From NCBI GenBank assembly GCA_016186915.1, contig JACPKU010000006.1, positions 313,619-350,085 of the forward strand: a stretch of DNA of 36,467 nucleotides, read 5' to 3'. Shown here one piece after another: positions 5,517-26,554 of the stretch. Made by a program: the position numbers and the translations under genes. The notes under the pieces are model-generated. The model did not search any database. It worked only from the letters and a program-made list of their open reading frames with translations, and was not told where the DNA came from. Source of the stretch: Candidatus Doudnabacteria bacterium. Its GTDB lineage: Bacteria; Patescibacteriota; Doudnabacteria; UBA920; O2-02-FULL-48-8. Within the stretch, counting starts at the first letter, position 1. The number at the start of each line of letters is the position of its first letter.

Positions 5517-7025
5517 CTATTTCTTCCCAAGCTTTCTCACAATTCCCTTATTCGCGTCCACCTCAACAAAATCCCCGTCTTTGAAAACCTGAGTTGCAAA
5601 TCTGGTGCCAATAACACATGGTGTTCCTAATTCGCGCGAAACGATGGCGGCGTGAGATGTAATGCCGCCCTGTTCGGTTACAATCGCTGCTGCTTTCTTC
5701 ATAGCTGAAACGATATCTGGATCAGTCGCAATGCTGACTAAGATATCCCCTTTATTCATCTTCTTCATATCCTTGGCTCTGATAATTATCTTCACGATAC
5801 CTTTTGCCATTCCTGGCTGAGCCACTTGACCAGTCAATTCTTTTAGGTTTTTATTAAGTGTGGTATTGATTGTTTTTCGGATTTTTTCTTCAAATTTTCC
5901 TAAATAGACGTGTTCAGAATTTTTCTCATAGAAAGTAACGCAGTGTCTTAGTCTGTTTTTTAGCTCTCCTTGGTTGACTTTGTTTTGAAGTAAAGCTTTT
6001 TTAACTTCATCCATCAACATAAATTGCACTTGGTATCTTGTAAGCTTTAATCTATTTGCAATCTCTGTGAGTAAGGTTTTGTGCATTAAAAGTAAATCAA
6101 GCAATTGAGCGTGCCGTCTAACTAATTTGGTTAGGGCGAAGTCAGTTGCCACGTCAAATAATCGCCTATAAAGCGGGGAAACTTTTAGTTTTCTATAAAG
6201 TTTAATTCTTTTTATTTTCGCATTCCTTAACTGTTCCGCTTCTTTTTTTAATACCTTTCTCCCCTCAATGCCGGTTTTTGCCAAGTCACCCATTTCCTTC
6301 CAATAGTGTTGCCAGGAAAAAGGCTGGGTATTTCCAGCATAAATATATCCCAAATGTCCCCATTTCTTAGCGTGTTCAACAAGAACTTGCTTTAAGCTTT
6401 GAGGAATGGTTTTTAATTTAATAAACTTTCTGTATTGATCATAAATTATTAAAAACTCTTCCCGTTCGGATGCAACAATGGTTTTTTTATCAGGTGTGGT
6501 AAAAGCGATAAACGCTGATTCTGCATCCTGTTTGCTTTCGCAGATACCGTAAAGATATTGCTTTAACTTCTTAGTAAAATTATTATGGAACATGTCCACG
6601 CAAACCGGCAGCCACCCATAGGTATAGAGTTTTGTATGCACTTGGTCGTGTTTTAAATAAAGTTCCCAGAGTTGTTTGTTTGAATATTTGTCTAAAGGTA
6701 AAACGGCTGTTCTTTTGGCAAATTCAATAAGCTTATGTGACCAGTCAACAATCTTCTTGTTTAATTCAGTCCCAAATTTTGGGCGATCAATTAAGGCTTT
6801 TAATATTGATTCTGCTACCTCATATGAATCTTTTTCTCCATAGCAGAAACTCATCTCGAATTTATCGTAGGTGGCCAGAACTTTTCGATAATTCTTAATA
6901 AACCTATAGCTTGTATCATTGGTAAAACAAGAAAACGGAATTTGAAAAAAGAAAATATCCGAATCTGGAATATTTTCCGCCAACATCCAAGAATCTTTAT
7001 CGAATAAGTATTTGGGTCTTACCAT
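5517..7025 (-). CDS. Split phosphotransferase, middle plus histidine swivel domain (copy 1)
   Basis: The last ~95 residues of this 502-residue protein are the phosphohistidine swivel domain of the PEP-synthase/PPDK/rifampin-phosphotransferase group, with the active-site stretch GGITSHAAIVSRELG and the end DGDFVEVDANKGIVRKLG. The first ~390 residues are a mostly helical region I do not recognise; in size and position it matches the substrate-binding middle domain of rifampin phosphotransferase (ATP-grasp, middle, His order). There is no PEP-binding barrel. A paralogue lies at 7842-9302 and an ATP-grasp half at 9694-10659, so it probably works in trans with that half. Substrate unknown. Confidence 0.75.
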   Translation of the reverse strand: MVRPKYLFDKDSWMLAENIPDSDIFFFQIPFSCFTNDTSYRFIKNYRKVLATYDKFEMSFCYGEKDSYEVAESILKALIDRPKFGTELNKKIVDWSHKLIEFAKRTAVLPLDKYSNKQLWELYLKHDQVHTKLYTYGWLPVCVDMFHNNFTKKLKQYLYGICESKQDAESAFIAFTTPDKKTIVASEREEFLIIYDQYRKFIKLKTIPQSLKQVLVEHAKKWGHLGYIYAGNTQPFSWQHYWKEMGDLAKTGIEGRKVLKKEAEQLRNAKIKRIKLYRKLKVSPLYRRLFDVATDFALTKLVRRHAQLLDLLLMHKTLLTEIANRLKLTRYQVQFMLMDEVKKALLQNKVNQGELKNRLRHCVTFYEKNSEHVYLGKFEEKIRKTINTTLNKNLKELTGQVAQPGMAKGIVKIIIRAKDMKKMNKGDILVSIATDPDIVSAMKKAAAIVTEQGGITSHAAIVSRELGTPCVIGTRFATQVFKDGDFVEVDANKGIVRKLGKK

Positions 7026-7055
7026 ACAGGCTAATTATAATCAAAATGCGCCGTA

Positions 7056-7084
7056 TTGACAAAATGCCGAAAGAGGAGTACAAT
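7056..7084 (+). promoter_or_regulatory. Promoter of the histidine-phosphatase gene
   Basis: TTGACA (7056-7061), 17-nt spacer, TACAAT (7079-7084) on the plus strand. It gives a leader of about 135 nt that contains the repeat hairpin at 7114-7181. Confidence 0.75.
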
Positions 7085-7113
7085 ATATAGTTCTTTTACA
7101 ATGATGGCTCTAA

Positions 7114-7181
7114 TGTCATTCTGGGCGGAGCGAAGAATCTGATTTCTTGTGTTCGGATCCTCCACTCCGTTCAGGATGACA
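7114..7181 (+). repeat. TGTCATTCTG...CAGGATGACA hairpin repeat, copy 1
   Basis: Two ~28-nt arms (GTCATTCTGGGCGGAGCG and its near complement ending CAGGATGAC) can form a long RNA hairpin with G-U pairs. It lies in the 5' leader, ending 46 nt before the ATG. Related copies at 15197-15266, 16022-16074 and 16564-16617 also sit just upstream of small GC-rich genes. Confidence 0.8.
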
Positions 7182-7227
7182 ATTCACTGACTCACGACAA
7201 CATACGACAAGCCTGTAGGAGGGCTCA

Positions 7228-7770
7228 ATGAAAACGCTGCACTATCGGCGACACTCGCTGAAGGACGGGAACTACATCAGCGCCGAAGGACTTCGTCTGG
7301 CGTTCCGCGAAGGGGCCCTCTGCGGCGTGATTCACCACAAGGTCTTTCACGGGCCGCTGGTCCGTACCGCCCAGACGCTCCTCTCGTTCCTGCAGGGAAG
7401 GACCGGCAACTCGATGATCATGCCGATCATCGAGGAGATCGGCAATGACACGATCGTTGCGGCCATGGTCAACGACGCGTTCAAGGCCGCGGTGAAGGAA
7501 GGCCTTCCGAACATCGAGTGCCTCCGCAGAGCGCATGACAACGACAAGCTTGCCCAGTTTGCGGCCAGCGCGTTGCATGCCGTTGTGAAGATGTTTGATC
7601 GGATGAACGAGGGGGACATTGCTGTCGCTTTCGGCCACAGTCCGATCATCACCCCGCCCGAAGGGTGGGACAAGCTCGGTGAGCTGGATGGCCTGGTATT
7701 TGTCCAGGACGCAGCCCGCATCCGCGTCACCCAGGTCATCCGCGCCCAGCGCGACACCGTTCCGGCGTAG
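7228..7770 (+). CDS. Histidine phosphatase (phosphoglycerate-mutase-like) superfamily protein
   Basis: The product (180 residues) begins MKTLHYRRHSLKDG, which corresponds to the RHG motif of the family with Ser for Gly; FHGPLVRTAQTLLSFL matches the SxLxRAxQTA motif; and AVAFGHSPII supplies the second catalytic His. So the fold is well supported although the substrate is not. The gene is visibly GC-rich, has a strong SD (AGGAGGG 4 nt before ATG), its own promoter and terminator, and sits on the strand opposite to the two paralogous phosphotransferase genes it separates. This suggests a separately acquired cassette. Confidence 0.8.
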   Translation: MKTLHYRRHSLKDGNYISAEGLRLAFREGALCGVIHHKVFHGPLVRTAQTLLSFLQGRTGNSMIMPIIEEIGNDTIVAAMVNDAFKAAVKEGLPNIECLRRAHDNDKLAQFAASALHAVVKMFDRMNEGDIAVAFGHSPIITPPEGWDKLGELDGLVFVQDAARIRVTQVIRAQRDTVPA

Positions 7771-7787
7771 CGACGGGAGCAGTACAG

Positions 7788-7832
7788 AAAGGCGAGTGGA
7801 CGAATCCATCGTAGGGTTCCCACTCGCCTTTT
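7788..7832 (+). terminator. Terminator of the histidine-phosphatase gene
   Basis: AAAGGCGAGTGG pairs with CCACTCGCCTTTT across a 20-nt loop, followed by a T-rich stretch, 17 nt after the stop. It also faces the end of the convergent gene at 7842. Confidence 0.85.
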
Positions 7833-7841
7833 CTATTTGCC

Positions 7842-9302
7842 TTAAATTTTCCTCACAATGCCTTTATTCGCATCTACCTCGACCAAATCCCCATCTTTAA
7901 AAACTTTAGTTCCGACCTTAGTCCCAATTACGCATGGTTTTTTCATCTCACGGGCAACAATTGCGGCATGTGATGTGATTCCTCCAACATCAGTCACAAA
8001 ACCCAAGGCCTTGTACATGGCCGGTAATAAATCGGGAGTTGTGGAAACGCCAATCAAAATATCCCCACGTTTTACCTTATCTAAATCTCCTATCCCAAAA
8101 ACTAATTTTGCCGGGCCCCTGGCAATACCTAAGTATGCGGCCTGGCCGTGTATTTCACTGCCCTTAAACTGGATCTCGGGCATCATCATTTTCTTCAAAA
8201 AAGCCTTAGCCTTGCTTTTAGGGATAAATCTTGAAATACCGTTTTCTGTAATTTCCAGTAGCCAGCGCTGTCTTTTAGAAATCTCTTTTATCGCCAGTTT
8301 TTTACCTTTGAGTAAGTCCAATATCTCCTCACGGCGTGCGTATTGGAAAAATTTAACCGGAAGATGAAATCTTTTTCCCAATGCTTTGAAAATCTCATCA
8401 GAGGTATAATGAACTTTATGCCTTACATTCACTCTATAAGCTTTAAGAAACATAAAAGTTCGGGCCGTGGCGAAAAAATATTTATCTTTCCGTGATAGTC
8501 CTAATTGTTTTTCTAATTTATTTTGTTTCTTTACAAGAATTTTAAATTGATTTTTATGCTCTGTATGCATTTTGCTAAAACTCTTTCGAGACTTTGCTAA
8601 ATTTTTTAACCGTATTATAAAATCACTGCTTCGCCAAATAGGGCCTTGATATCCATAATTAAGCCAAAAATATTTATTAACATGATTTTTAAATTCTTGG
8701 CTCTTAACTATTTGTCTTAAACTTTTATATTTTCTGGCAATACCTAATAATTCCAACTGCTCTTGCCAATACAAGTCCGGTTGATTGTTGCTGATTAAAA
8801 GAGATAGATAATCCTGAACTTTTATGGGATCAACTTTATATTTTATTAAAATGCCGGTTAACCTCTGGTTCAAAATCGAATGCTCAAAATCACTAATTAC
8901 CGGGATCAACCCCAACATATTGAGTTCTATATAATCTTGCCAAATCGTTTTCAGATTTGAAATAATTTCTCTATTGCTGACTAAATTTAAATTTCTCTTA
9001 TTTAATTTGTTACAAATGATAAACAGCCTTTTGCCAAGCCTTTGATGTTCTTTGATTAGCTGTTTGACATCTAAATTTCCTTTTTCTATTCTATCTACAA
9101 CCAGTTTGCCTAACTTCTCCCAATTCTGAACTTCTACTCCCCAAAAACCGGCGTCCTTCTCCATTAACATCAAAGCTCCGGAAGAATATATACCGAGGTG
9201 TTTCTTAAACTCATTGGAAGTAAAACCGTTGGCGATTAGACTCCAGCTATAGTAATTCGTATTTGTCTCTTTTACGATCCATTTTACAGATTTTGGCCTC
9301 AT
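7842..9302 (-). CDS. Split phosphotransferase, middle plus histidine swivel domain (copy 2)
   Basis: Paralogue of the protein at 5517-7025 (486 residues). The C terminus has HGQAAYLGIARGPAKLVFG, the swivel active site GGITSHAAIVAREMK, PCVIGTKVGTKVFKDGD and the same last residues (VEVDANKGIVRKI). The N-terminal ~390 residues diverge more. Its ATG overlaps (ATGA) the stop of a remnant of an ATP-grasp half at 9303-9373, showing that it once followed such a gene directly. Total length with the ATP-grasp half (~321) would be about 810, near the ~870 of rifampin phosphotransferases. Confidence 0.75.
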   Translation of the reverse strand: MRPKSVKWIVKETNTNYYSWSLIANGFTSNEFKKHLGIYSSGALMLMEKDAGFWGVEVQNWEKLGKLVVDRIEKGNLDVKQLIKEHQRLGKRLFIICNKLNKRNLNLVSNREIISNLKTIWQDYIELNMLGLIPVISDFEHSILNQRLTGILIKYKVDPIKVQDYLSLLISNNQPDLYWQEQLELLGIARKYKSLRQIVKSQEFKNHVNKYFWLNYGYQGPIWRSSDFIIRLKNLAKSRKSFSKMHTEHKNQFKILVKKQNKLEKQLGLSRKDKYFFATARTFMFLKAYRVNVRHKVHYTSDEIFKALGKRFHLPVKFFQYARREEILDLLKGKKLAIKEISKRQRWLLEITENGISRFIPKSKAKAFLKKMMMPEIQFKGSEIHGQAAYLGIARGPAKLVFGIGDLDKVKRGDILIGVSTTPDLLPAMYKALGFVTDVGGITSHAAIVAREMKKPCVIGTKVGTKVFKDGDLVEVDANKGIVRKI

Positions 9303-9373
9303 AAAGTCGTGATTGGTCTTGGTTGGATAATAATAAATTTGCCCTTTACATAAGCTCCTTCGATGTCTTGGGT
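9303..9373 (-). pseudogene. Remnant of a second ATP-grasp half
   Basis: One minus-strand frame reads QDIEGAYVKGKFIIIQPRPI then TTL and stop (TGA at 9301-9303), nearly identical in pattern to the end of the ATP-grasp gene at 9694 (QDIEWAYSKGKFYITQSRPI, TTL). Nothing else of the domain is left; the text begins right after the stop of the gene at 9374. A tandem duplication followed by deletion explains it. Confidence 0.75.
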
Positions 9374-9658
9374 TTATTTTCTTGCGACATAAACAAAGGG
9401 TAAAAAATATGCTTGCAGCATTTCTGATCGACTCTCATCGCAGACTATTTCCCGTAAGCGCGTTAGTTCTTTAAGGCGCAACCGAAATCGGGGGTCAGCA
9501 ATGGTCAGATCCAAAAGTTCCAGCAGGCGAGCTTGGGCTTGCTGTTTCATCTCTGAATTTTTTGCTGAGATAAATCTATTATATTCAGCTCCAATATTAG
9601 CTAACTGTTGAATCAGTGACATTTTCTGCCACCTTTTAATAAAATCTTTCTTTAACAT
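9374..9658 (-). CDS. Conserved hypothetical protein, helical
   Basis: With the ATG at 9658 the product is 94 residues (MLKKDFIKRWQKMSLIQQLA...). The core from MSLIQQLANIGAEYNR through LLELLDLTIADPRFRLRLKE to LTRLREIVCDE resembles a small helical hypothetical protein common in CPR genomes; I recognise the pattern but no function. It lies between the intact ATP-grasp half and the remnant of the second one. Confidence 0.6.
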   Translation of the reverse strand: MLKKDFIKRWQKMSLIQQLANIGAEYNRFISAKNSEMKQQAQARLLELLDLTIADPRFRLRLKELTRLREIVCDESRSEMLQAYFLPFVYVARK

Positions 9659-9693
9659 TTTATCATAACTTACTACTGTCTTACTATACAGTA

Positions 9694-10659
9694 TTACAGT
9701 GTGGTTATGGGACGTGATTGAGTAATGTAAAATTTCCCTTTGGAATAAGCCCATTCGATGTCTTGGGGTTTTTTGTAGTGCTTTTCAATGTTGATGCAAA
9801 TTTTTGCAATTTCAATAATTTGCCTGCCAGTGAGTTTCTGCTTATTCCCTGTCATTCGCTCATTCGCGCGAATGAGTCCGCCGCCTTTCCCCAATCGAAG
9901 GGAAAAAGCTTGTTCTGACACATTGATATCCAAAATCGCCAAATCGTTTTTATGCACCACGTAAGTATCTGGGGTGATTTGGCCGGATACAATCGCCTCG
10001 CCCAAGCCAAACCCGGCTTCAATTACCATTTGATTGCGGTCTTTGGTGACGGGATGCACGGTAAAACAAATACCGGAAATTTCTGACTGCACCATAGTTT
10101 GTACCACCACGGCCACGGATACAAATTTCTTGTGCAGTTTTTTTTCAAATCTATAAAAAATCGCGCGCGGCGTAAACAGCGACCCCCAGCACTTCTGAAC
10201 ATTCTTCAACACATCTTTTTCCGTGGTGTTAAGATAAGTTTCCAACTGTCCGGCCCAAGCGTCAGATGAAGAATCTTCGGCGGTTGCTGACGACCGGACA
10301 GCTACAAACTTGACTTTTCCGCCGGAGGCGGACCCGCCTTTGGCGGAAATACTCCTAAAGTATTTTAAGATGTCGTTGGCAATATCTCGCGGCATCTTGG
10401 CTTTTTCGATTAAGGCACGAATTTTTTCCGAAGCCTGTTCCACTGAATTGATATCCTTGTGATTCACCTTATGCAAAGCCGCGTCTATTTCCACACCCAA
10501 ATCAGTTTCTTTCAGAAACTCGTCAAAAGCGCTCGCAAGCACCACAAAACCCGGCGGCACAGGAATTTTGACATTCGTCATTTCCCCCAAAGACGCCCCT
10601 TTTCCTCCAGCTTCAAAAACCGACTTCTTATTTAACTGCTTAAACGTCTTAATATTCAT
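9694..10659 (-). CDS. Split phosphotransferase, ATP-grasp (PEP/pyruvate-binding) half
   Basis: N-terminal nucleotide-binding domain of the PEP synthase/PPDK family as a free 321-residue protein. Visible: GGKGASLGEM (20-27), PVPPGFVV, VRSSATAED (121-129), GQLETYLN, and FTVHPVTKD and FGLGEAIVSG. It ends YITQSRPITTL, exactly where the linker to the swivel domain would start. The start MNIKTFKQ at 10659 matches the family N terminus; longer starts would read through the operator at 10684-10711. Residues 106-115 (AKGGSASGGK) are encoded by a GC-rich palindromic repeat and look inserted. It probably charges the swivel domains of the two paralogues. Confidence 0.82.
   Translation of the reverse strand: MNIKTFKQLNKKSVFEAGGKGASLGEMTNVKIPVPPGFVVLASAFDEFLKETDLGVEIDAALHKVNHKDINSVEQASEKIRALIEKAKMPRDIANDILKYFRSISAKGGSASGGKVKFVAVRSSATAEDSSSDAWAGQLETYLNTTEKDVLKNVQKCWGSLFTPRAIFYRFEKKLHKKFVSVAVVVQTMVQSEISGICFTVHPVTKDRNQMVIEAGFGLGEAIVSGQITPDTYVVHKNDLAILDINVSEQAFSLRLGKGGGLIRANERMTGNKQKLTGRQIIEIAKICINIEKHYKKPQDIEWAYSKGKFYITQSRPITTL
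10318..10347. repeat. In-frame palindromic repeat (SAKGGS...SGGK type) in the ATP-grasp gene
   Basis: The stretch starts tccgccggaggcgga and ends cgcctttggcgga. It is bounded by TTTTCCGCC/GGCGGAAA ends and encodes SAKGGSASGG. The same ends and peptide recur in tatD (27361-27428). Confidence 0.75.
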
Positions 10660-10683
10660 GCCCGATAACCCCATCTTCCCTTC

Positions 10684-10711
10684 GGTGTCCAATTCCATAG
10701 AATTGGACACC
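10684..10711. promoter_or_regulatory. Palindromic operator 1
   Basis: GGTGTCCAATTC and GAATTGGACACC (12-bp arms) around CATA, between the ArsR-type gene and the ATP-grasp gene. It matches operator 2 at 11012-11037 over TGTCCAATTC. I infer a binding site for the regulator encoded between the two sites. Confidence 0.65.
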
Positions 10712-10720
10712 TCTAAAAAA

Positions 10721-10999
10721 TTAGAAAACAATCTTAAAAATTCTTGCTACAGCGCCGGATAACTTCGGATTAATGCTGTAGTATACTCGGTCCTGCCGAC
10801 CCTGAAATTCTATCAAATCTAAATTCGCAAGGATACTTAAATTCCTGGAAGTGTTTTTTAGACTAATCCCCAATTCATCAGCAAGAGCCGAGACTGACAT
10901 TTGTTTCGTCCTGCTTAAAATCTGTAATATCTTAAGCCGGTTCGGATTACCCAGTCCCCGAAAAACGGTAGCCCACTGTCTTAAACTTTTATTAGACAT
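10721..10999 (-). CDS. ArsR-family winged-helix regulator
   Basis: A 92-residue winged-helix protein: FRGLGNPNRLKILQILSR, MSVSALADELGISLKNTSRN (recognition helix region), LSILANLDLIEFQGRQDRVY (wing). ArsR proteins are dimeric repressors that usually bind perfect palindromes at their own promoter. No cysteine pair of the arsenic/metal type is visible, so the signal is unlikely to be a metal bound in the usual CxC site. The gene is bracketed by two matching palindromes, and the ATP-grasp gene follows in the same direction. Confidence 0.85.
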   Translation of the reverse strand: MSNKSLRQWATVFRGLGNPNRLKILQILSRTKQMSVSALADELGISLKNTSRNLSILANLDLIEFQGRQDRVYYSINPKLSGAVARIFKIVF

Positions 11000-11088: not shown

Positions 11089-12024
11089 TTATGACTCCAG
11101 TATAGCAGATTTATAAGGATTTTGTAATGCGTCCGATTCGTTAACCTGTGTCAGCCCCCAGATAGCTCCAAGCAGAATAACGCCACCAACGATTTGGCCG
11201 ATTTCCAGACTGGCATCCAGAAAAATCCAGTTAACGACCACTGCGGCAAACGGGAAAGCTAGTTCCCCAAGCGTGGCAATGCTGGCTTTAGTAGTCTGCA
11301 GTCCTTGATAGTAAATGAATAGTGAAATAAACCCGGCAATCACGGCAATAATGAATACAAACAGCCAATCTTTACCAGAAGCCGAGGCCACTTCACCCAG
11401 CCTGCCATAATAAATCTGCAGCAGGAATAAAAATACAAGTGCGGCTAAAAATCTTACTGCTGTTACTGCTTGAAAGCTTATTTTTCTCAAAACCAATCTG
11501 CCAAACACAGTAGATCCTCCCCATAACACTGCAGCAAGCAAAGCAAACATTACTCCCAAACCTCCTCCAGTAAAATTCAGCCCCGAAATTTTGAATTCAG
11601 GAAAGGTGATTAGGTATGCGCCGAAAATAGCTATCAGGGCGTAAAGCCAAAACTTCTTACTCAAACGCTCTTTGAGAAATATTGCCGCAAGCAAGATTGC
11701 TATAAATGGCTGCACTTTCTGCAATAAAATCGCCACTGAAGGATTTACATAGCGAAAACTTTGGGTAAAGAACACGGTGGCCAAAGCTGACCCGCCGGCT
11801 GCAATAAACACAACTGCCAACCACTCTTTCCAAGACAAATTTTTAAGTTCACCCAAATATCGAAACAAGAACACCAGCACCAACACCGCAATTAAGACAT
11901 GCTCCATGAACACGATCGTGGTGGAAGATAGATCAACTGTCAAAAACTTGCGAAACGGCGCGTCGATCGCCCAGAGCATGGCTGCAATCACTATAAGCCA
12001 TGGGCCTAATTTGTATTTCTCCAT
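11089..12024 (-). CDS. EamA/DMT-family transporter, probable riboflavin importer
   Basis: Ten hydrophobic segments in two EamA repeats (roughly residues 8-140 and 155-295) make this a drug/metabolite-transporter-superfamily permease. The start MEKYKLGPW at 12024 is chosen because it follows GAAGG and the riboswitch; longer starts would run into the riboswitch. An FMN riboswitch directly upstream, and riboflavin kinase and FAD synthase genes beyond it, point to flavin transport; the protein sequence alone gives only the family. 311 residues, normal for the family. Confidence 0.82.
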   Translation of the reverse strand: MEKYKLGPWLIVIAAMLWAIDAPFRKFLTVDLSSTTIVFMEHVLIAVLVLVFLFRYLGELKNLSWKEWLAVVFIAAGGSALATVFFTQSFRYVNPSVAILLQKVQPFIAILLAAIFLKERLSKKFWLYALIAIFGAYLITFPEFKISGLNFTGGGLGVMFALLAAVLWGGSTVFGRLVLRKISFQAVTAVRFLAALVFLFLLQIYYGRLGEVASASGKDWLFVFIIAVIAGFISLFIYYQGLQTTKASIATLGELAFPFAAVVVNWIFLDASLEIGQIVGGVILLGAIWGLTQVNESDALQNPYKSAILES

Positions 12025-12033
12025 AAAAAATAC

Positions 12034-12208
12034 ACCTTCTTTCATCCCGACTATACGGTCGGCCCTGGAATTACACCAGATCATGCCACTGACTAGGTGG
12101 CTCGTGGGCTAAACCCTCTCTCGGCCTTCGGCCACTCTCTCCCAAGGAGAGAGAGATAAAAAGAAAGGGTCATTACCACCGATTGCCGAATCACACGGCA
12201 CCCTGAAA
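12034..12208 (-). ncRNA. FMN riboswitch (RFN element)
   Basis: On the minus strand the conserved RFN blocks appear in order: TCAGGGTGCCGTGTGATTCG, then AATCGGTGGTAATGACC, TTAGCCCACGAGCC, GATCTGGTGTAATTCCAGG, GCCGACCGTATAGTC and GGGATGAAAGAAGG. These correspond to the RFN consensus (CAGGGTGAAATTCC, CGGCGGTAAT, AGCCCGCGAGCC, GATCCGGTGAGATTCCGG, GCCGACGGT, GTCCGGATGGAAGAAGG). A palindromic hairpin (CTCTCTCC..., about 12117-12150) is inserted in the variable arm before AGCCC. The SD (GAAGG) of the transporter gene lies in the last conserved strand, so FMN binding likely blocks translation. Confidence 0.9.
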
Positions 12209-12212
12209 ATGT

Positions 12213-12653
12213 TTAATTACTTGGATTATAACTGGAGAAAAACTGTCTGGCAAACAGCTCATCCTGTTTCATCTGCTCGATCAATTCGTCCGCAGAATCA
12301 AATTTTTCGTTCTCTCGAATCTTTTTGATGAGTTCCACCCCTAACTCTTTCCCGTAAATGTCATATGTAAAATCCAGGATATACACTTCTACTTTTCTCT
12401 CCTGCTCATCAAAAGTCTTCGCGCTACCGATAAAGATTAAGGCAGGCAAATATTTTTGTTCCGGCATGATCGCTTTCCTCGGCCACAACTTGCGGACAAA
12501 CAATGGCGGCAGACCATTTTCTATGTGCGTGACTAAGCCTACATAAACACCTTCTTCGGCGTGGGTTTCCGCATCCAAATTCGCGGTCGGGAATCCTAAC
12601 TGCTTGCCTCGTCCCAAATGTTTTTTCACTTTACCGGAGATTATTGTTGCCAT
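12213..12653 (-). CDS. Riboflavin kinase (flavokinase domain alone)
   Basis: Phosphorylates riboflavin to FMN. With the start MATIISGKVKKHLGRGKQLG the product is 146 residues and equals the C-terminal kinase domain of RibF: GRGKQLGFPTANLD (14-27), AEEGVYVGLV, and the C-terminal EVYILDFTYDIYGKEL. The adenylyltransferase half is not fused; a separate nucleotidyltransferase lies just upstream (12721-13191). A longer start would add residues encoded by a palindromic repeat (MLPERSEAESKAI) and is less likely. Confidence 0.9.
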   Translation of the reverse strand: MATIISGKVKKHLGRGKQLGFPTANLDAETHAEEGVYVGLVTHIENGLPPLFVRKLWPRKAIMPEQKYLPALIFIGSAKTFDEQERKVEVYILDFTYDIYGKELGVELIKKIRENEKFDSADELIEQMKQDELFARQFFSSYNPSN

Positions 12654-14320: not shown

Positions 14321-14499
14321 AAAAATCCGGCTCTTTTGGCCGGTTCATCGCTTTTCCTATTTAAACTTGCATGTTTAATGCTTCATTCTCTTAAGCGCTG
14401 AACCGGCTGCACTTGGGTTGGGACAAAATTAACCTTATCCAAGGCCTTGGTGGCAATGGAATTAGTGCGGGTAATTTGGTTCAGCTGTCGGTAATTCAT
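14321..14499 (-). promoter_or_regulatory. Attenuator D (four-segment leader RNA)
   Basis: Minus-strand segments: 1 = GCTGAACC (14485-14478), 2 = GCCGGTTCAGC (14407-14397), 3 = TGAACCGGC (14347-14339), 4 = GCCGGATTTTTG (14331-14320). 1:2 pairs over 8 bp, 2:3 over 9 bp, 3:4 over 5 GC pairs followed by the T-tract. Segments 1 and 2 lie inside the 38-codon leader ORF. Pairing 2:3 excludes the terminator 3:4. Confidence 0.7.
14383..14499 (-). CDS. Leader peptide of unit D (38 aa)
   Basis: ATG at 14499 to TGA at 14383; starts MNYRQLNQITRTNSIATKAL and ends VNFVPTQVQPVQRLRE. It contains attenuator segments 1 and 2. Unlike the leaders of A-C there is no clear run of one amino acid; Val and Gln are frequent just before segment 2. 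No SD. Confidence 0.45.
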   Translation of the reverse strand: MNYRQLNQITRTNSIATKALDKVNFVPTQVQPVQRLRE

Positions 14500-14519
14500 A
14501 ATTATTGCTATCCATTGAC

Positions 14520-14548
14520 AGTTTAAGCCAAAATAAAAATGCCGTCAA
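14520..14548 (-). promoter_or_regulatory. Promoter of unit D
   Basis: TTGACG (14543-14548), 17-nt spacer, TAAACT (14520-14525). Same design as the promoters of units A-C. Confidence 0.75.
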
Positions 14549-14691: not shown

Positions 14692-14868
14692 TTAGCCATC
14701 CTCTATAGACCTCAGTCGCGCTCGCGCGCGATGAAGCGGATTGACGACCAACCGATTCCACTCGGACGAAGTCCGTCCGTTCGGGGTAACTGCCTCGAGC
14801 CTTTCGATGAGTTCCTTAAGCTCATCGGCAGTTTTCGCCTGCTCCACCAATTGGGGGTATGCTTCCAT
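14692..14868 (-). CDS. Small hypothetical protein C2 (58 aa)
   Basis: ATG at 14868 preceded by GTAGGGGG; TAA at 14692. Product MEAYPQLVEQAKTADELKEL then IERLEAVTPNGRTSSEWNRL, ending RARARLRSIEDG. Mostly helical with a heptad-like start. The SD overlaps the stop region of C1 (9 nt apart), so the two are one operon. No family recognised. Confidence 0.7.
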   Translation of the reverse strand: MEAYPQLVEQAKTADELKELIERLEAVTPNGRTSSEWNRLVVNPLHRARARLRSIEDG

Positions 14869-14877
14869 GGCTACCCC

Positions 14878-15144
14878 CTACACTCCGTGGCCGTAGCCAG
14901 CCTCAACGAGATCGGACCCGCGATGCTCGAACTGAACCGCTGGCTGCGCCGGCGCCGGCTTCTTGCTGCGGCAGAGCTCGGCTTCGGCAACAGCCAGTTT
15001 CTGGACCACTTGGTGAAGCGCGTCACCGCAGTCCACGATTTGCCGAACGCTGCCGCCATTGCGGACATGACCCACAAGAGTCGTGGCAAGCCCCGCGATC
15101 TCGCGCTTCGTCTGTTCCACCTCTTCCCGAAGCCTCGTTTCCAT
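14878..15144 (-). CDS. Small hypothetical protein C1 (88 aa), coiled-coil-like
   Basis: ATG at 15144 preceded by GAGGAGGAA; begins METRLREEVEQTKREIAGLA, continues with an amphipathic helix (DALHQVVQKLAVAEAELCRS) and ends VEAGYGHGV. Likely a helical bundle or coiled coil. It is the first gene after the Leu-type attenuator and the GTCAT hairpin. Function unknown. Confidence 0.7.
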   Translation of the reverse strand: METRLREEVEQTKREIAGLATTLVGHVRNGGSVRQIVDCGDALHQVVQKLAVAEAELCRSKKPAPAQPAVQFEHRGSDLVEAGYGHGV

Positions 15145-15341: not shown

Positions 15342-15480
15342 AAAAATACCGGCCTTTTGCGAGCCGGTTGCTGTTACGTGATCCGTGTTATGTGATACGC
15401 GATCTATAACCAAAACCGACTCTTTGAGGCAAGAGCAACAACAAGCCCAAAATAATTAAAAGTCGGATTTGATTAGCCAT
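15342..15480 (-). promoter_or_regulatory. Attenuator C (Leu-type leader RNA)
   Basis: Minus-strand segments: 1 = CCGACT (15466-15461), 2 = GAGTCGGTT (15422-15414), 3 = AACCGGCTC (15369-15361), 4 = GGCCGGT then ATTTTTG (15353-15341). 1:2 pairs 6 bp, 2:3 pairs 9 bp, 3:4 pairs 6 bp plus G-U and T-tract. The Leu codon run lies between segments 1 and 2. The 2-3 loop holds repeated TCACGTA-like words shared with attenuator B. Confidence 0.8.
15388..15480 (-). CDS. Leucine-rich leader peptide (30 aa)
   Basis: MANQIRLLIILGLLLLLPQR followed by VGFGYRSRIT and TAA. Eight of residues 7-17 are Leu, using CTT, TTA, TTG and CTC. It resembles the Leu runs of enterobacterial leu leader peptides. The ATG (15480) is about 87 nt from the predicted transcription start, because a palindromic repeat lies between. 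No SD is seen. Confidence 0.6.
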   Translation of the reverse strand: MANQIRLLIILGLLLLLPQRVGFGYRSRIT

Positions 15481-15507
15481 GTGTTTAGTCTGGCCCTTCA
15501 GCTTTAT

Positions 15508-15556
15508 TCTCCCCCGCTTGCGGGGGAGATGTCCCGCTAAACGGGGCAGAGAGGGC
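15508..15556. repeat. ctcccccgc/gcgggggag palindromic repeat
   Basis: Stem TCTCCCCCGC-TTGC-GGGGGAGA type (ctcccccgcttgcgggggag) plus cccgctaaacggg, between promoter C and the Leu leader ORF. It appears inserted, since unit B has the same promoter context without it. Confidence 0.65.
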
Positions 15557-15573
15557 TTTCACTGATTGAAATC

Positions 15574-15602
15574 AGGTTATCAAAGAGTTTGCTTATTGTC
15601 AA
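15574..15602 (-). promoter_or_regulatory. Promoter of unit C
   Basis: TTGACA (15597-15602), 17-nt spacer, TAACCT (15574-15579); the following TGATTTCAA matches the text after promoter B. Confidence 0.75.
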
Positions 15603-16080: not shown

Positions 16081-16202
16081 AAAAAACCGGCCTTAAGCCG
16101 GCTTGTGCTACGTGATCTGTGTTACGTGATACGTGACAAAGGCCGACTTTACGGACGGATCATAATGCTAATAATAGAGATAATATTATGTGATCGGTTC
16201 AT
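16081..16202 (-). promoter_or_regulatory. Attenuator B (Ile-type leader RNA)
   Basis: Minus-strand segments: 1 = CCGAT (16197-16193), 2 = AGTCGGC (16148-16142), 3 = GCCGGCT (16102-16096), 4 = GGCCGGTTTTTT (16092-16081). 1:2 pairs 5 bp, 2:3 pairs 7 bp, 3:4 forms a stem with U-tract. The leader stop codon is immediately before segment 2. The 2-3 loop carries TCACGTATCACGTAACAC and ATCACGTA. Confidence 0.8.
16149..16202 (-). CDS. Isoleucine-rich leader peptide (17 aa)
   Basis: MNRSHNIISIISIMIRP and TAA; six Ile codons (ATT/ATC) in ten positions. The ATG (16202) is about 11 nt from the end of the -10 box, so the mRNA is nearly leaderless, matching the lack of an SD. Confidence 0.6.
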   Translation of the reverse strand: MNRSHNIISIISIMIRP

Positions 16203-16212
16203 ACTTGAAACC

Positions 16213-16241
16213 AGTTTATCACTGGATTTAGTTTAAGTCAA
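16213..16241 (-). promoter_or_regulatory. Promoter of unit B
   Basis: TTGACT (16236-16241), 17-nt spacer, TAAACT (16213-16218). Confidence 0.78.
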
Positions 16242-16675: not shown

Positions 16676-16814
16676 AAAATTAAAATCCGACCATGCCGGT
16701 CGGTTAGTTTTGTTTGTCTGCCTTCGACAAGCTCAGGCATCAATACAGCAAAACTTACCGACCTCTGTATCGGAAAAAATAAAACCAAAACTGATTAGTA
16801 ATAGATGAATTCAC
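16676..16814 (-). promoter_or_regulatory. Attenuator A (aromatic-type leader RNA)
   Basis: Minus-strand segments: 1 = CCGAT (16773-16769), 2 = GGTCGGT (16763-16757), 3 = ACCGACC (16704-16698), 4 = GGTCGG then ATTTTAATTTT (16692-16676). 1:2 and 3:4 are short stems; 2:3 pairs 7 bp, with a further AGT/ACT beyond one mismatch. A palindromic repeat (ccttcgacaagctcaggc) sits in the 2-3 loop. Confidence 0.75.
16755..16814 (-). CDS. Aromatic-rich leader peptide (19 aa)
   Basis: GTG start: MNSSITNQFWFYFFRYRGR and TAA. Six aromatic codons in a row (TTT TGG TTT TAT TTT TTC), then Arg and another Tyr. The run sits just ahead of segment 1. Its GTG is inside the 3' arm of the MNPVRN element, so translation may depend on that element. 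Confidence 0.6.
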   Translation of the reverse strand: MNSSITNQFWFYFFRYRGR

Positions 16815-16917
16815 CCCGTTAGAAATACTGTAATATGGCAAATTGTTTGCTGTCATTTAATATAAATTCGTTTAAGAACTCCGTAAAATTTGATTATTAA
16901 TTTCTAACGGGGTTCAT
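16812..16917 (-). promoter_or_regulatory. MNPVRN inverted-repeat leader element, copy 2
   Basis: Arms ACCCCGTTAGAAAT (16913-16900) and ATTTCTAACGGGGT (16826-16813) pair over 14 bp; the 3' arm covers the first two bases of the GTG of the aromatic leader. Confidence 0.75.
16897..16917 (-). CDS. Putative leader minigene MNPVRN
   Basis: ATG AAC CCC GTT AGA AAT TAA, starting about 12 nt after the -10 box; same six residues as the relBE leader minigene. Confidence 0.4.
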   Translation of the reverse strand: MNPVRN

Positions 16918-16929
16918 GCTGATAAACGC

Positions 16930-16958
16930 AGTATATACTTAAACTGCCCGGCCGTCAA
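16930..16958 (-). promoter_or_regulatory. Promoter of unit A
   Basis: TTGACG (16953-16958), 17-nt spacer, TATACT (16930-16935), directly after the parB stop. Confidence 0.8.
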
Positions 16959-23626: not shown

Positions 23627-26554
23627 TTACTTCACCACAAAATTAATCAGTTTATCCTGCACAAAAATTTCCTTAATAATTTCTTTGTCCGTTAAATACT
23701 TTTTGACATTTTCGTCTGCCAGGGCCTTTTGTTTAACGTCTTCCTGCGAGCTTCCGGCATCCATTTCCAAAGTCGCCCGGACCCTGCCGGAGATTTGCAC
23801 TACGAAGATCACCTTCGTATCTTGGGCGAACTTTTCATCATATTTGGGCCAAGCTTCTTTATGTATTGATCCCTCATGGCCCAAGCCGTGCCAAAGTTCT
23901 TCTGTGATGTGCGGAGCCAAAGGAGCTAAAAGTTTCAGAAAATCCTCCCAGCTTAACTTACTAATGTTGGTTTTTTGACGCTCGAAGGCGTTAAGTAAAA
24001 TCATCAAGGCGCTAATTGCCGTGTTAAAGCGATAGTTCTCAATATCACTGGTCACCTTTTTGATCGTTTTATTTAAAACTTGCAGCACTTCCTGGCTGCT
24101 TTCCTCGACTTGATGCTCCACTAAAACTTGTCCCAAGTTCCAAGTTTTATCCAAAAATCTTTTCACCCCCATAATTCCTTTATCGTTCCAGCTCACGGTA
24201 TCCGCATGGGGGCCTAAAAACATTTCGTACATCCGCAGCACATCTGCGCCGAATTTTTCTACAATCTCGTCAGGGTTGACTACATTGCCCCGGCTCTTAC
24301 TCATTTTCTCGCCGTCGGCAGCCAAGACAATGCCGTGCGGCACGCGCTTCATATAAGGTTCTTGCGCGGTGACGACTTTTTGGTCATACAAAAACAAATT
24401 CCAGAAACGGGAATACAGCAAATGCAGCGTGGTATGTTCCATGCCGCCAAAATACACATCCACTGGCGTCCAGCGCTTGAGTAATTTTTTACTGGCTAAT
24501 TCCTTGCCGTTTTGTGGATCCGTATATCTTAACCAATACCAAGAACTGCCTGCCCACTGCGGCATGGTGTTGGTTTCTCTTTTCGCCGGCCCTTCACATT
24601 CAGGGCATTTCACATTCACCCATTCTTTAATCGCGGCCAAAGGGGACTCCCCTGTGCCGGTGGGTTCATACCTTTCTACTTCTGGCAAGGTCACGGGCAA
24701 ATCTTTTTCAGGCACTGCCACCACGCCGCAGTTTTCGCAATGAATAATTGGGATTGGCTCACCCCAATATCGCTGGCGTGAAAACACCCAATCGCGGAGT
24801 TTATATTGCACTTTAGGGACCCCAAACTCTTTTGCCATCTTCGGAATCGCTTCTTCCGAGGTCATACCATTATACTCGCCAGAGTCAACCAATTTTCCGT
24901 TTCCTACAAAAGGCAATTCTCCACCTTTGACGACTTCTCTAATCGGCAAATTGTATTTTTTCGCAAACTCGAAATCGCGCTCGTCATGCGCCGGCACGGC
25001 CATGATCGCACCGGTCCCGTAGCCCATGAGCGCATAATCAGCCACCCAAACCGGAATTTCTTCTTTGGTTGCAGGATTGATCGCTTTGACACCTTTCAGC
25101 TCTACACCCGTCTTTTCTCTGTTAACTGCTGTTCGAGTTATCTCGTCTTTTTTCTTAACCTCTTCTAAATACTTCGCGATGTCAGAAAAATTCTCGGAAA
25201 TAGACATCCGGCTTTGCACCAAAGGATGCTCTGGGGCTATGACCATATAAGTAGCGCCAAAAATCGTATCCGGTCGGGTTGTAAAAATTTTCATATACGG
25301 CAAGAGTGTCTCAAGAATTGCAGGCTCTTCTTTTCCTTGAAAGTGTGGCTTGAGCGCCTGAACAGTTTGCGGATAGGAATCTAGATTTTTACCCAAAACC
25401 TTACCATCTTCCATTGGAACCACTGTATCAGAAGAATCTACCAAAATTTTAAAATAATCGGAGTTTTGCCGAATTTTTTTATAATCGAATCCTCGACGTA
25501 CTGCTTCACTAACCGTTGGTCGAGCTTTTTTATCCAAAAATTTACCCGTTGTGGGGGTCGACACCAAGACCACGCCATGAACCTTATGACCTCTTTCTAA
25601 AAGCCTCAATGCTACAATCCCTCCAAATGAATGGCTAACGACAACCGTACTTTCATCTAATTTACAATTTTTTTCTACAAAATCAGTTTGCTCCAAGTCA
25701 TTCGGTTCACCTGGATTGGGCATTTCCGGTATCTCAACCTCGAAACCTCGATCTTCCAATTCCTTCTTTAACCAAGGATAAGAGTTATCTTTGGGCTTAC
25801 TTGCACGACCGTGCAAAATCACATACCGCTTGACCCTAGGATTTGCTATGGGAAATTCTATCTCCGCTCCCTCGCTCCTACCGATCCAGTTCTCCTGCTG
25901 GAGTTTAACTGCTTCCGGCCACTCGGTTAGGTCTTTTAAACCAGCAAGAAGTTTTTCAGCGTACGCCGTGATTTTCAGATACCACTGGCGCATTTCTTTT
26001 TTCTCAACTTTCGTACCACAACGCTCACAGCAACCGTCTATTACTTCTTCATTGGCCAGACCGGTTTTATCCTTGGGACACCAATTAATCAGCCCTGTTG
26101 CTTCATATGCCAAGCCGGCTTTGAAAAACTGCAGGAATATCCACTGGGTCCATTTGTAATACTCTGGATCTGTGGTGTTGATCTCCCTGCTCCAATCAAA
26201 ACTCATGCCCCAGCTTTGCAGCTGCTTTTTCGCATTCTCGATATTTTTTACCGTGGAAATTTTCGGATGCACGCCTTTTTTCAAGGCAAAGTTTTCAGCA
26301 GGCAAGCCAAAAGCATCCCAGCCAATTGGGTATAACACTTCATGCTCCTGCATTCGATAAAAACGCGAATACACATCACCGGCTGTGTAGGGCCGCAGAT
26401 GTCCCATATGCAAACCTTCCCCGGAAGGATAAGGAAATTCAATCAGGACATACTTTTTGTCCTTCTTACTTGTATCCGAAGCTTTATAAACTTCGTCTTT
26501 TTCCCATTTGTCCTGCCATTTTTTCTCTATTGCTTTGTGGTCGTATTTGGTCAT
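23627..26554 (-). CDS. leuS: Leucyl-tRNA synthetase with an inserted RBBP9-like hydrolase domain
   Basis: Class I synthetase charging tRNA-Leu. 975 residues: PYPSGEGLHMGHLRPYT (HMGH), zinc knuckle CPKDKTGL...CCERCG, NWIGRSEGAEIEF, IFTTRPDTIFGATYMV (editing domain), WAGSSWYWLRY and KMSKSRGN. Between EGAEIEF and the TTRPDT strand there are ~180 extra residues (237-418, DNA 25301-25846) forming a full alpha/beta hydrolase: VILHGRASKP, nucleophile Ser309 in SHSFGG, Asp376 in DSSDTVVP, His404 in LKPHFQGKEEP. Normal LeuRS has only a short link there. tatD lies upstream. Confidence 0.96.
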   Translation of the reverse strand: MTKYDHKAIEKKWQDKWEKDEVYKASDTSKKDKKYVLIEFPYPSGEGLHMGHLRPYTAGDVYSRFYRMQEHEVLYPIGWDAFGLPAENFALKKGVHPKISTVKNIENAKKQLQSWGMSFDWSREINTTDPEYYKWTQWIFLQFFKAGLAYEATGLINWCPKDKTGLANEEVIDGCCERCGTKVEKKEMRQWYLKITAYAEKLLAGLKDLTEWPEAVKLQQENWIGRSEGAEIEFPIANPRVKRYVILHGRASKPKDNSYPWLKKELEDRGFEVEIPEMPNPGEPNDLEQTDFVEKNCKLDESTVVVSHSFGGIVALRLLERGHKVHGVVLVSTPTTGKFLDKKARPTVSEAVRRGFDYKKIRQNSDYFKILVDSSDTVVPMEDGKVLGKNLDSYPQTVQALKPHFQGKEEPAILETLLPYMKIFTTRPDTIFGATYMVIAPEHPLVQSRMSISENFSDIAKYLEEVKKKDEITRTAVNREKTGVELKGVKAINPATKEEIPVWVADYALMGYGTGAIMAVPAHDERDFEFAKKYNLPIREVVKGGELPFVGNGKLVDSGEYNGMTSEEAIPKMAKEFGVPKVQYKLRDWVFSRQRYWGEPIPIIHCENCGVVAVPEKDLPVTLPEVERYEPTGTGESPLAAIKEWVNVKCPECEGPAKRETNTMPQWAGSSWYWLRYTDPQNGKELASKKLLKRWTPVDVYFGGMEHTTLHLLYSRFWNLFLYDQKVVTAQEPYMKRVPHGIVLAADGEKMSKSRGNVVNPDEIVEKFGADVLRMYEMFLGPHADTVSWNDKGIMGVKRFLDKTWNLGQVLVEHQVEESSQEVLQVLNKTIKKVTSDIENYRFNTAISALMILLNAFERQKTNISKLSWEDFLKLLAPLAPHITEELWHGLGHEGSIHKEAWPKYDEKFAQDTKVIFVVQISGRVRATLEMDAGSSQEDVKQKALADENVKKYLTDKEIIKEIFVQDKLINFVVK

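Follow-up and report, generated by a model that had tools for sequence, protein, structure and literature searches.

Introduction

The trp, pheA, ilv and leu leaders of Proteobacteria are regulated by ribosome-mediated transcription attenuation. Such leaders combine a short open reading frame (ORF) carrying regulatory codons with mutually exclusive 1:2, 2:3 and 3:4 helices, a U-tailed terminator and a stop codon near or within segment 2. Outside Proteobacteria, amino-acid-specific leader-peptide attenuators have been predicted in Actinobacteria by comparative genomics (PMC1262725). According to a review (PMC11665869), the pathways that the phylum Patescibacteria lacks include amino-acid biosynthesis, and in the open-access full-text literature searched (subscription journals and preprints were outside its scope) we found no report of a leader-peptide attenuator in this group.

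Here we analyse a window of DNA, 36,467 nt in its entirety, from a Patescibacteria genome (G000; 728 kb, 97% complete) that carries a candidate attenuator behind parB. The unit shares all the features of the Proteobacteria leaders named above, and the mechanism itself is classical. What differs from those leaders is the mixed Phe, Trp and Tyr run, the close spacing of promoter and ATG in relatives, which would make the leader nearly leaderless, the arrangement of units for different amino acids in tandem arrays, and an output of small unknown proteins in genomes without chorismate synthase. The Patescibacteria units also differ in having no Rfam match.

Results

Architecture of the aromatic unit

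The features of the aromatic unit (unit A) and of its neighbors are collected in Table 1. The leader consists of the codons GTG AAT TCA TCT ATT ACT AAT CAG TTT TGG TTT TAT TTT TTC CGA TAC AGA GGT CGG TAA, and the RNA can form three competing helices: 1:2 (CCGAU/GUCGG), 2:3 (GGUCGGUAAGUUUUG with CAAAACUAACCGACC) and 3:4 (CCGACC/GGUCGG). The terminator with its U tract stands before the first structural gene of the unit, at a distance of about 140 nt from the controlled GTG ORF. The antiterminator pairing was left unharmed by a dispersed repeat, GCCTGAGCTTGTCGAAGGC, that landed in its loop. Searches with Rfam families (Trp_leader, Phe_leader and others, T-box included) gave no match at gathering score in the region, and only implausible weak ones below it.

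An earlier note, made from the sequence alone, had proposed the reading frame, the run TTT TGG TTT TAT TTT TTC, the terminator and a controlled CxxC protein of 76 residues with four Trp; all of these held, on the minus strand. The one fact that did not hold was the start codon, which is a GTG at 16814 and not an ATG; an in-frame ATG is also present upstream, at 16856. No weight attaches to the four Trp residues that the note had pointed to in the CxxC protein, because downstream proteins vary greatly.

An aromatic run in one genome alone is not improbable and is unconvincing. A loose scan (four aromatics in six residues including Trp, in a short ORF with a terminator-like hairpin beyond) gave eight matches in the whole 728-kb genome. 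Conservation decides, and unit A is lifted above chance because the aromatic leader is conserved in relatives.

Table 1. Positions of unit A, its sister units and adjoining features within the window.
Feature	Position	Strand	Remarks
parB	17799-16960	-	ParB_N, HTH_ParB and ParB_C domains; unit A directly behind
Ancestral promoter TTGACG-N17-TATACT	16930-16958	-	Directly behind parB
MITE-like element	16813-16913	.	About 100 nt; 14-nt perfect inverted ends (16813-16826/16900-16913) flanked by TGAA direct repeats; further copies at L052:135, L053:11152, L056:10451, L171:4901, L189:8285, L232 and L238
Candidate substitute promoter ATGACA-N18-TACAGT	16827-16856	-	Inside the element, 12 nt before GTG; 9/12 matches, on consensus alone
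Leader ORF	16814-16755	-	GTG start, (V/M)NSSITNQFWFYFFRYRGR, TAA stop; counterparts in nine other family genomes
Regulatory codons TTT TGG TTT TAT TTT TTC	16773-16790	-	Supported by conservation and folding switch
Segment 1 (CCGAT)	16769-16773	-	1:2 hairpin, -5.4 kcal/mol
Segment 2 (GGTCGGTAAGTTTTG)	16749-16763	-	Overlaps the stop codon
Dispersed genomic repeat (GCCTGAGCTTGTCGAAGGC)	16719-16743	-	In the antiterminator loop; seven other genomic places
Segment 3 (CAAAACTAACCGACC)	16698-16712	-	Supported by folding and duplex analyses
Segment 3:4 terminator, CCGACCGGCATGGTCGG + ATTTTAATTT	16677-16703	-	Hairpin 16703-16687, then AT-rich tail
Controlled ORF, 76 aa	16306-16536	-	GTG start, CKKC, four Trp; AAGGAGG Shine-Dalgarno at 16549-16543
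Unit B	16084-16241	-	Promoter, Ile-rich leader MNRSHNIISIISIMIRP (16202-16149), terminator 16104-16084
Unit B gene, 64 aa	15795-15989	-	MNEVHKLSEELV...
Unit C	15348-15602	-	Promoter, Leu-rich leader MANQIRLLIILGLLLLLPQRVGFGYRSRIT (15480-15388), terminator 15368-15348
Unit C small genes	14692-15144	-	88 aa ending GYGHGV; 58 aa
Unit D	14327-14536	-	Leader MNYRQLNQITRTNSIATKALDKVNFVPTQVQPVQRLRE (14499-14383), terminator 14343-14327; sensed amino acid unclear

Conservation of the aromatic leader in the family

A DNA search with the whole leader region returned no orthologue, and synteny succeeded: we searched the intergenic regions behind parB in the family of the window's genome (f1, 14 genomes). 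Three genomes (G009, G010 and G013) yielded no parB, which left 11, and in 10 of these an aromatic (class A) leader stands in an array behind parB; in G008 parB was found without a class A unit. The leaders read NSSITNQFWFYFFRYRGR (G000), MNLSTSSQSFWFYFFRARGR (G001), MSKAHVNTNSFWFYFTG (G005), MQSISRNFWFYFYRHAVGDFVMR (G006), MKIHSANSFWFYFYTDALAG (G007), MKYQGKQNSFWFYFGH (G012), MQSIRPNFYFWFSHPEVVG (G004), MNLVANRTSQYWFSHQMVVG (G011), MNLSLTQSSYWFTTGHRW (G002) and MKLAHIQSAYWFTTGHRW (G003). Phe, Trp and Tyr are all present in each of the ten. The order of the run is FWFYF in six genomes, FYFWF in one (G004) and YWF in three; among the FWFYF genomes third codon bases vary (TTT/TTC, TAT/TAC), and the flanks and the N-terminal part drift. 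In most of these ten genomes no other unit lies between parB and the aromatic leader. In G011 it is preceded by a lysC unit, in G004 by a promoter and terminator without an aromatic leader, plus a small ORF.

In the ten leaders, 35 of the 40 codons in the four positions ahead of the folding switch described below encode F, W or Y, compared with 18 of the remaining 140 (Fisher p = 9e-19); this p-value is optimistic, as the genomes are related and the switch was chosen as the reference point. A short leader ORF with clustered aromatic codons is conserved across orthologues. The alignment of orthologous leaders that the earlier note had asked for, expecting aromatic codons to be kept and other residues to drift, was thereby run and passed. 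Orthologous leaders without aromatic enrichment, which would have refuted the idea, were not what we found, F/W/Y being enriched in ten leaders.

A predicted folding switch at the aromatic codons

For each unit the RNA hidden by a ribosome was removed and the terminator probability computed, using a footprint of the A-site codon plus 14 nt, which is usual but assumed. With the ribosome on any codon of F W F Y F F, the window's unit had a terminator probability of 0.00-0.02, and from the next codon through the stop it was 0.91. The other nine class A units gave values from near 0 to 0.18 on Trp and 0.87-1.0 at the stop. The flip from antiterminator to terminator lies within, at or just past the run in all ten units. 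The remaining units also flip, mostly fully; in units B and C of the window the flip falls where the Ile or Leu run ends, or close to it. The Lys leader of G011 switched only partially at its Lys codons, and in unit C of G001 no terminator satisfying our criteria was found. When the spacers were shuffled with dinucleotides preserved, the terminator persisted (mean 0.73-0.96), and 1-24 of 200 shuffles per unit were as low as the natural spacer (combined p = 3e-7, class A).

The model therefore predicts that the antiterminator excludes the terminator with a ribosome on the run, and that the terminator forms with a ribosome at the stop. In the absence of a ribosome the window's leader prefers the antiterminator (terminator probability 0.00), unlike the classical trp leader. 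The claim of the earlier note that a stalled ribosome frees segment 2 for segment 3 and so removes the terminator is supported, as a folding prediction without expression data. The role it gave to segment 1 held only in part: the 1:2 hairpin exists, yet the model works without segment 1, as a terminating ribosome can act alone, covering segment 2 directly at the stop codon that overlaps it.

Co-evolution of segments 2 and 3

The letters of segments 2 and 3 change jointly between genomes (GGUCGG/CCGACC, GGCCGG/CCGGCC, GGUUGG/CCAGCC), and the upper stems have diverged too. As MAFFT misaligned segment 2 on raw leaders, we relied on folding and duplex permutation to test the pairing. Over 27 units the duplex between a unit's own segments had a mean energy of -18.4 kcal/mol, against -12.5 for partners swapped between genomes; none of 100000 permutations reached the own pairing, and 16 of 100000 did so for class A alone. 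Column-by-column covariation in the six-pair core was weak: 2:3 was not above shuffles, and 3:4 was reached by 18 of 500. The composite alignment for these core-column tests was hand-assembled from predicted partners and is therefore biased towards structure. The evidence for co-evolution of the alternative partners therefore rests on the full helix, for which it is shown; the core alone remains weak.

Tandem units and their small proteins

The window contains at least four such units, one aromatic, one for Ile, one for Leu and one whose sensed amino acid could not be assigned; leaders of this last class (class D) are about 23-38 aa long and were matched to no amino acid. Other members of the family carry further kinds. 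A unit of G012 has two adjacent Cys codons in its leader, and in G011 a KK leader stands directly before aspartokinase (AA_kinase E = 5e-45; L186:1360). An array unit of G012 precedes the gene for a protein of 351 aa that weakly matches DapB_N (L181:9300). Attenuators may possibly control aspartate-family biosynthesis genes in G011 and G012, the G012 match being weak.

The genes of the units are small ORFs with Shine-Dalgarno sequences, and those tested gave no Pfam match above cut-off. For the 76-aa protein no homologue was detectable in 145 relatives; a weak link (E = 0.024, only array proteins searched) connects it to a CxxC family of G005, G011, G012 and G007. Apart from this four-genome family and a C-terminal GYGHGV tail there is little similarity among the unit proteins. 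The tail is common to otherwise dissimilar small proteins in the window (14878-15144), G003, G005, G006 and G012, and its five occurrences in the family all (5/5) lie in arrays behind parB. Chorismate synthase is absent from 14/14 genomes of the family and TrpA is present in only one, and most units therefore cannot serve de novo aromatic synthesis.

Aromatic leaders outside the family

A structured pattern scan (aromatic codons, spacer, CCGRCC...GGYCGG) across 379 genomes of the phylum matched G001, G006 and G007 as well as two genomes of other families, G300 and G263. The true spread is wider than these matches, because the strict pattern missed even some family members. A scan outside the family for TTYTGGTTYTAYTTY only was useless, because the coding background was high. 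The leaders of G300 and G263, which represent two other families of the phylum, contain NYFWFYF and show the same folding switch.

In G300 the leader MDIRKNYFWFYFINTREAGRI is followed by a CxxC small ORF, prephenate dehydratase (PDT, E = 8e-43), prephenate dehydrogenase (PDH_N, E = 3e-20) and a class I/II aminotransferase (E = 7e-41). This resembles the E. coli pheA leader, in which a Phe-rich leader stands before prephenate dehydratase, with the differences that the G300 and family leaders add Trp and Tyr and that most family units have no biosynthetic gene. The Actinobacteria attenuators (PMC1262725) were found at amino-acid metabolism genes, which here is the case only in G300, G011 and possibly G012. 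The G300 cluster, with Phe/Tyr genes behind an aromatic leader in a distant family, lends independent support to the identity of the sensed amino acids, co-transcription being inferred: it is not established, and the biosynthetic genes of G300 may have their own promoter. In G263 an Ile leader and a Leu leader stand ahead of the aromatic leader MNLIMRNYFWFYFFAGLGRVI, a three-member set that matches that of the window; its Ile leader switches at the run, and its Leu leader showed no switch in the folding model.

An inserted element before the window's leader

In relatives, a promoter of the same kind as the ancestral promoter of the window lies 6-13 nt ahead of the leader ATG. In the window the MITE-like element is inserted between promoter and old ATG on one side and the leader on the other, and the ancestral ATG was thereby split off. 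The leader now starts with GTG and has no Shine-Dalgarno sequence. With the element between promoter and leader and with this GTG start, translation start and function are less certain for the window's leader.

The elements (CCGTTAGAAAT ... ATTTCTAACGG; variable interior; about 80-115 nt) form a family with about eight copies in the window's genome. Start-codon-like triplets are abutted by 20 of the 26 distinct copies examined, and direct ATGAA repeats often flank the copies, recreating the start. Copies abut the starts of genes which, from their translations, we take to be rpmJ, rplI, a hibernation-factor gene, tpiA and murC, with copies before rpmJ in two families; because of this the element seems able to precede working genes. 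In G118 and G131 one element copy encloses a tRNA-like sequence.

Other features of the window

Three further observations concern the window outside the array. A leucyl-tRNA synthetase (23627-26554) carries, ahead of its editing domain, a serine-hydrolase-like insertion (residues 245-393; alpha/beta hydrolase, PF06821, with a score just above cut-off). Immediately ahead of the gene for an EamA-family transporter (11089-12084), a candidate riboflavin importer, lies an FMN riboswitch (12030-12214). The stretch 5517-10731 encodes one protein with a PPDK_N domain and, separately, two that have the PEP-utiliser mobile domain; from these domains we infer parts resembling phosphoenolpyruvate synthase, split over separate genes.

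Discussion

A ribosome-mediated transcription attenuator sensing charged Phe, Trp and Tyr tRNA is the likely reading of unit A, on computation only and without expression data. Computation shows the conservation of the run, the predicted folding switch, the co-evolution of segments 2 and 3 and the Ile and Leu sister units. According to this reading, RNA polymerase would start behind parB and a ribosome would translate the short leader. A shortage of charged Phe-, Trp- or Tyr-tRNA would halt this ribosome on the aromatic run, the front edge of the ribosome leaving segment 2 free to pair with segment 3; the 3:4 terminator would be prevented and the downstream small-protein genes transcribed. With aromatic amino acids in good supply, the ribosome would reach the stop codon overlapping segment 2, the terminator would form and transcription would end. 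Leader translation and the response to tRNA charging are inferred.

Chance, in the form of a T-rich stretch before an ordinary parB terminator, would fit the eight places found by the loose aromatic-run scan, but is all but excluded: orthologues already contradict it, the leader being conserved across genera and in two other families, the segments co-evolve, and promoters lie behind parB. Direct sensing of the amino acid or the tRNA, by a riboswitch, a T-box or a protein-bound attenuator, would also involve a terminator with alternative pairing, which is common to all these classes. However, no Rfam family matches the region at gathering score, a conserved unpaired aptamer is absent and the regulatory codons track the switch point, leaving almost no room for this explanation. 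Nascent-chain arrest, in which the FWFYF peptide itself would stall the ribosome on a free ligand as in TnaC, rather than through a shortage of charged tRNA, could be argued from the identical FWFYF order in six genomes of the family, G300 and G263. We consider it very unlikely, as the order is altered to FYFWF in G004 and shortened to YWF in three genomes and the N-terminal part drifts, which fails the criterion of a conserved peptide of fixed order, and as units with Ile and Leu runs have the same RNA architecture.

A different objection is that the attenuators of the family work and the window's copy is a dead relic, inactivated by the element and the dispersed repeat. In its favor, the element splits the promoter from the leader, the start is GTG, a Shine-Dalgarno sequence is missing and the repeat is inserted within the antiterminator loop. 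Against it, the frame, the aromatic run, the position of the stop codon and every pairing segment have remained intact, and the window's own 2:3 duplex is among the strongest (-23.2 kcal/mol, rank 1). A promoter-like site also lies in the element 12 nt before the GTG, and essential genes, rpmJ among them, have copies of the element before their start codons. We consider inactivation of the window's copy unlikely.

What the small proteins do is inferred. Because the family lacks chorismate synthase, they might serve a starvation or uptake response, which is a guess. A bolder reading is that, in Patescibacteria unable to make aromatics, tandem attenuators with different amino-acid specificities (aromatic, Ile, Leu and others) together form a multi-channel supply gauge, which would switch on fast-evolving small proteins, some of them GYGHGV-tailed, for acquisition from or attachment to a host; on balance we lean slightly against it. 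A laboratory strain would suffice for testing the attenuator switch, with no need to cultivate the source organism. Gene regulation in ultrasmall, mostly host-dependent bacteria without amino-acid pathways is largely unknown; the arrays described here indicate which amino acids are probably monitored, and they suggest small proteins as the output.
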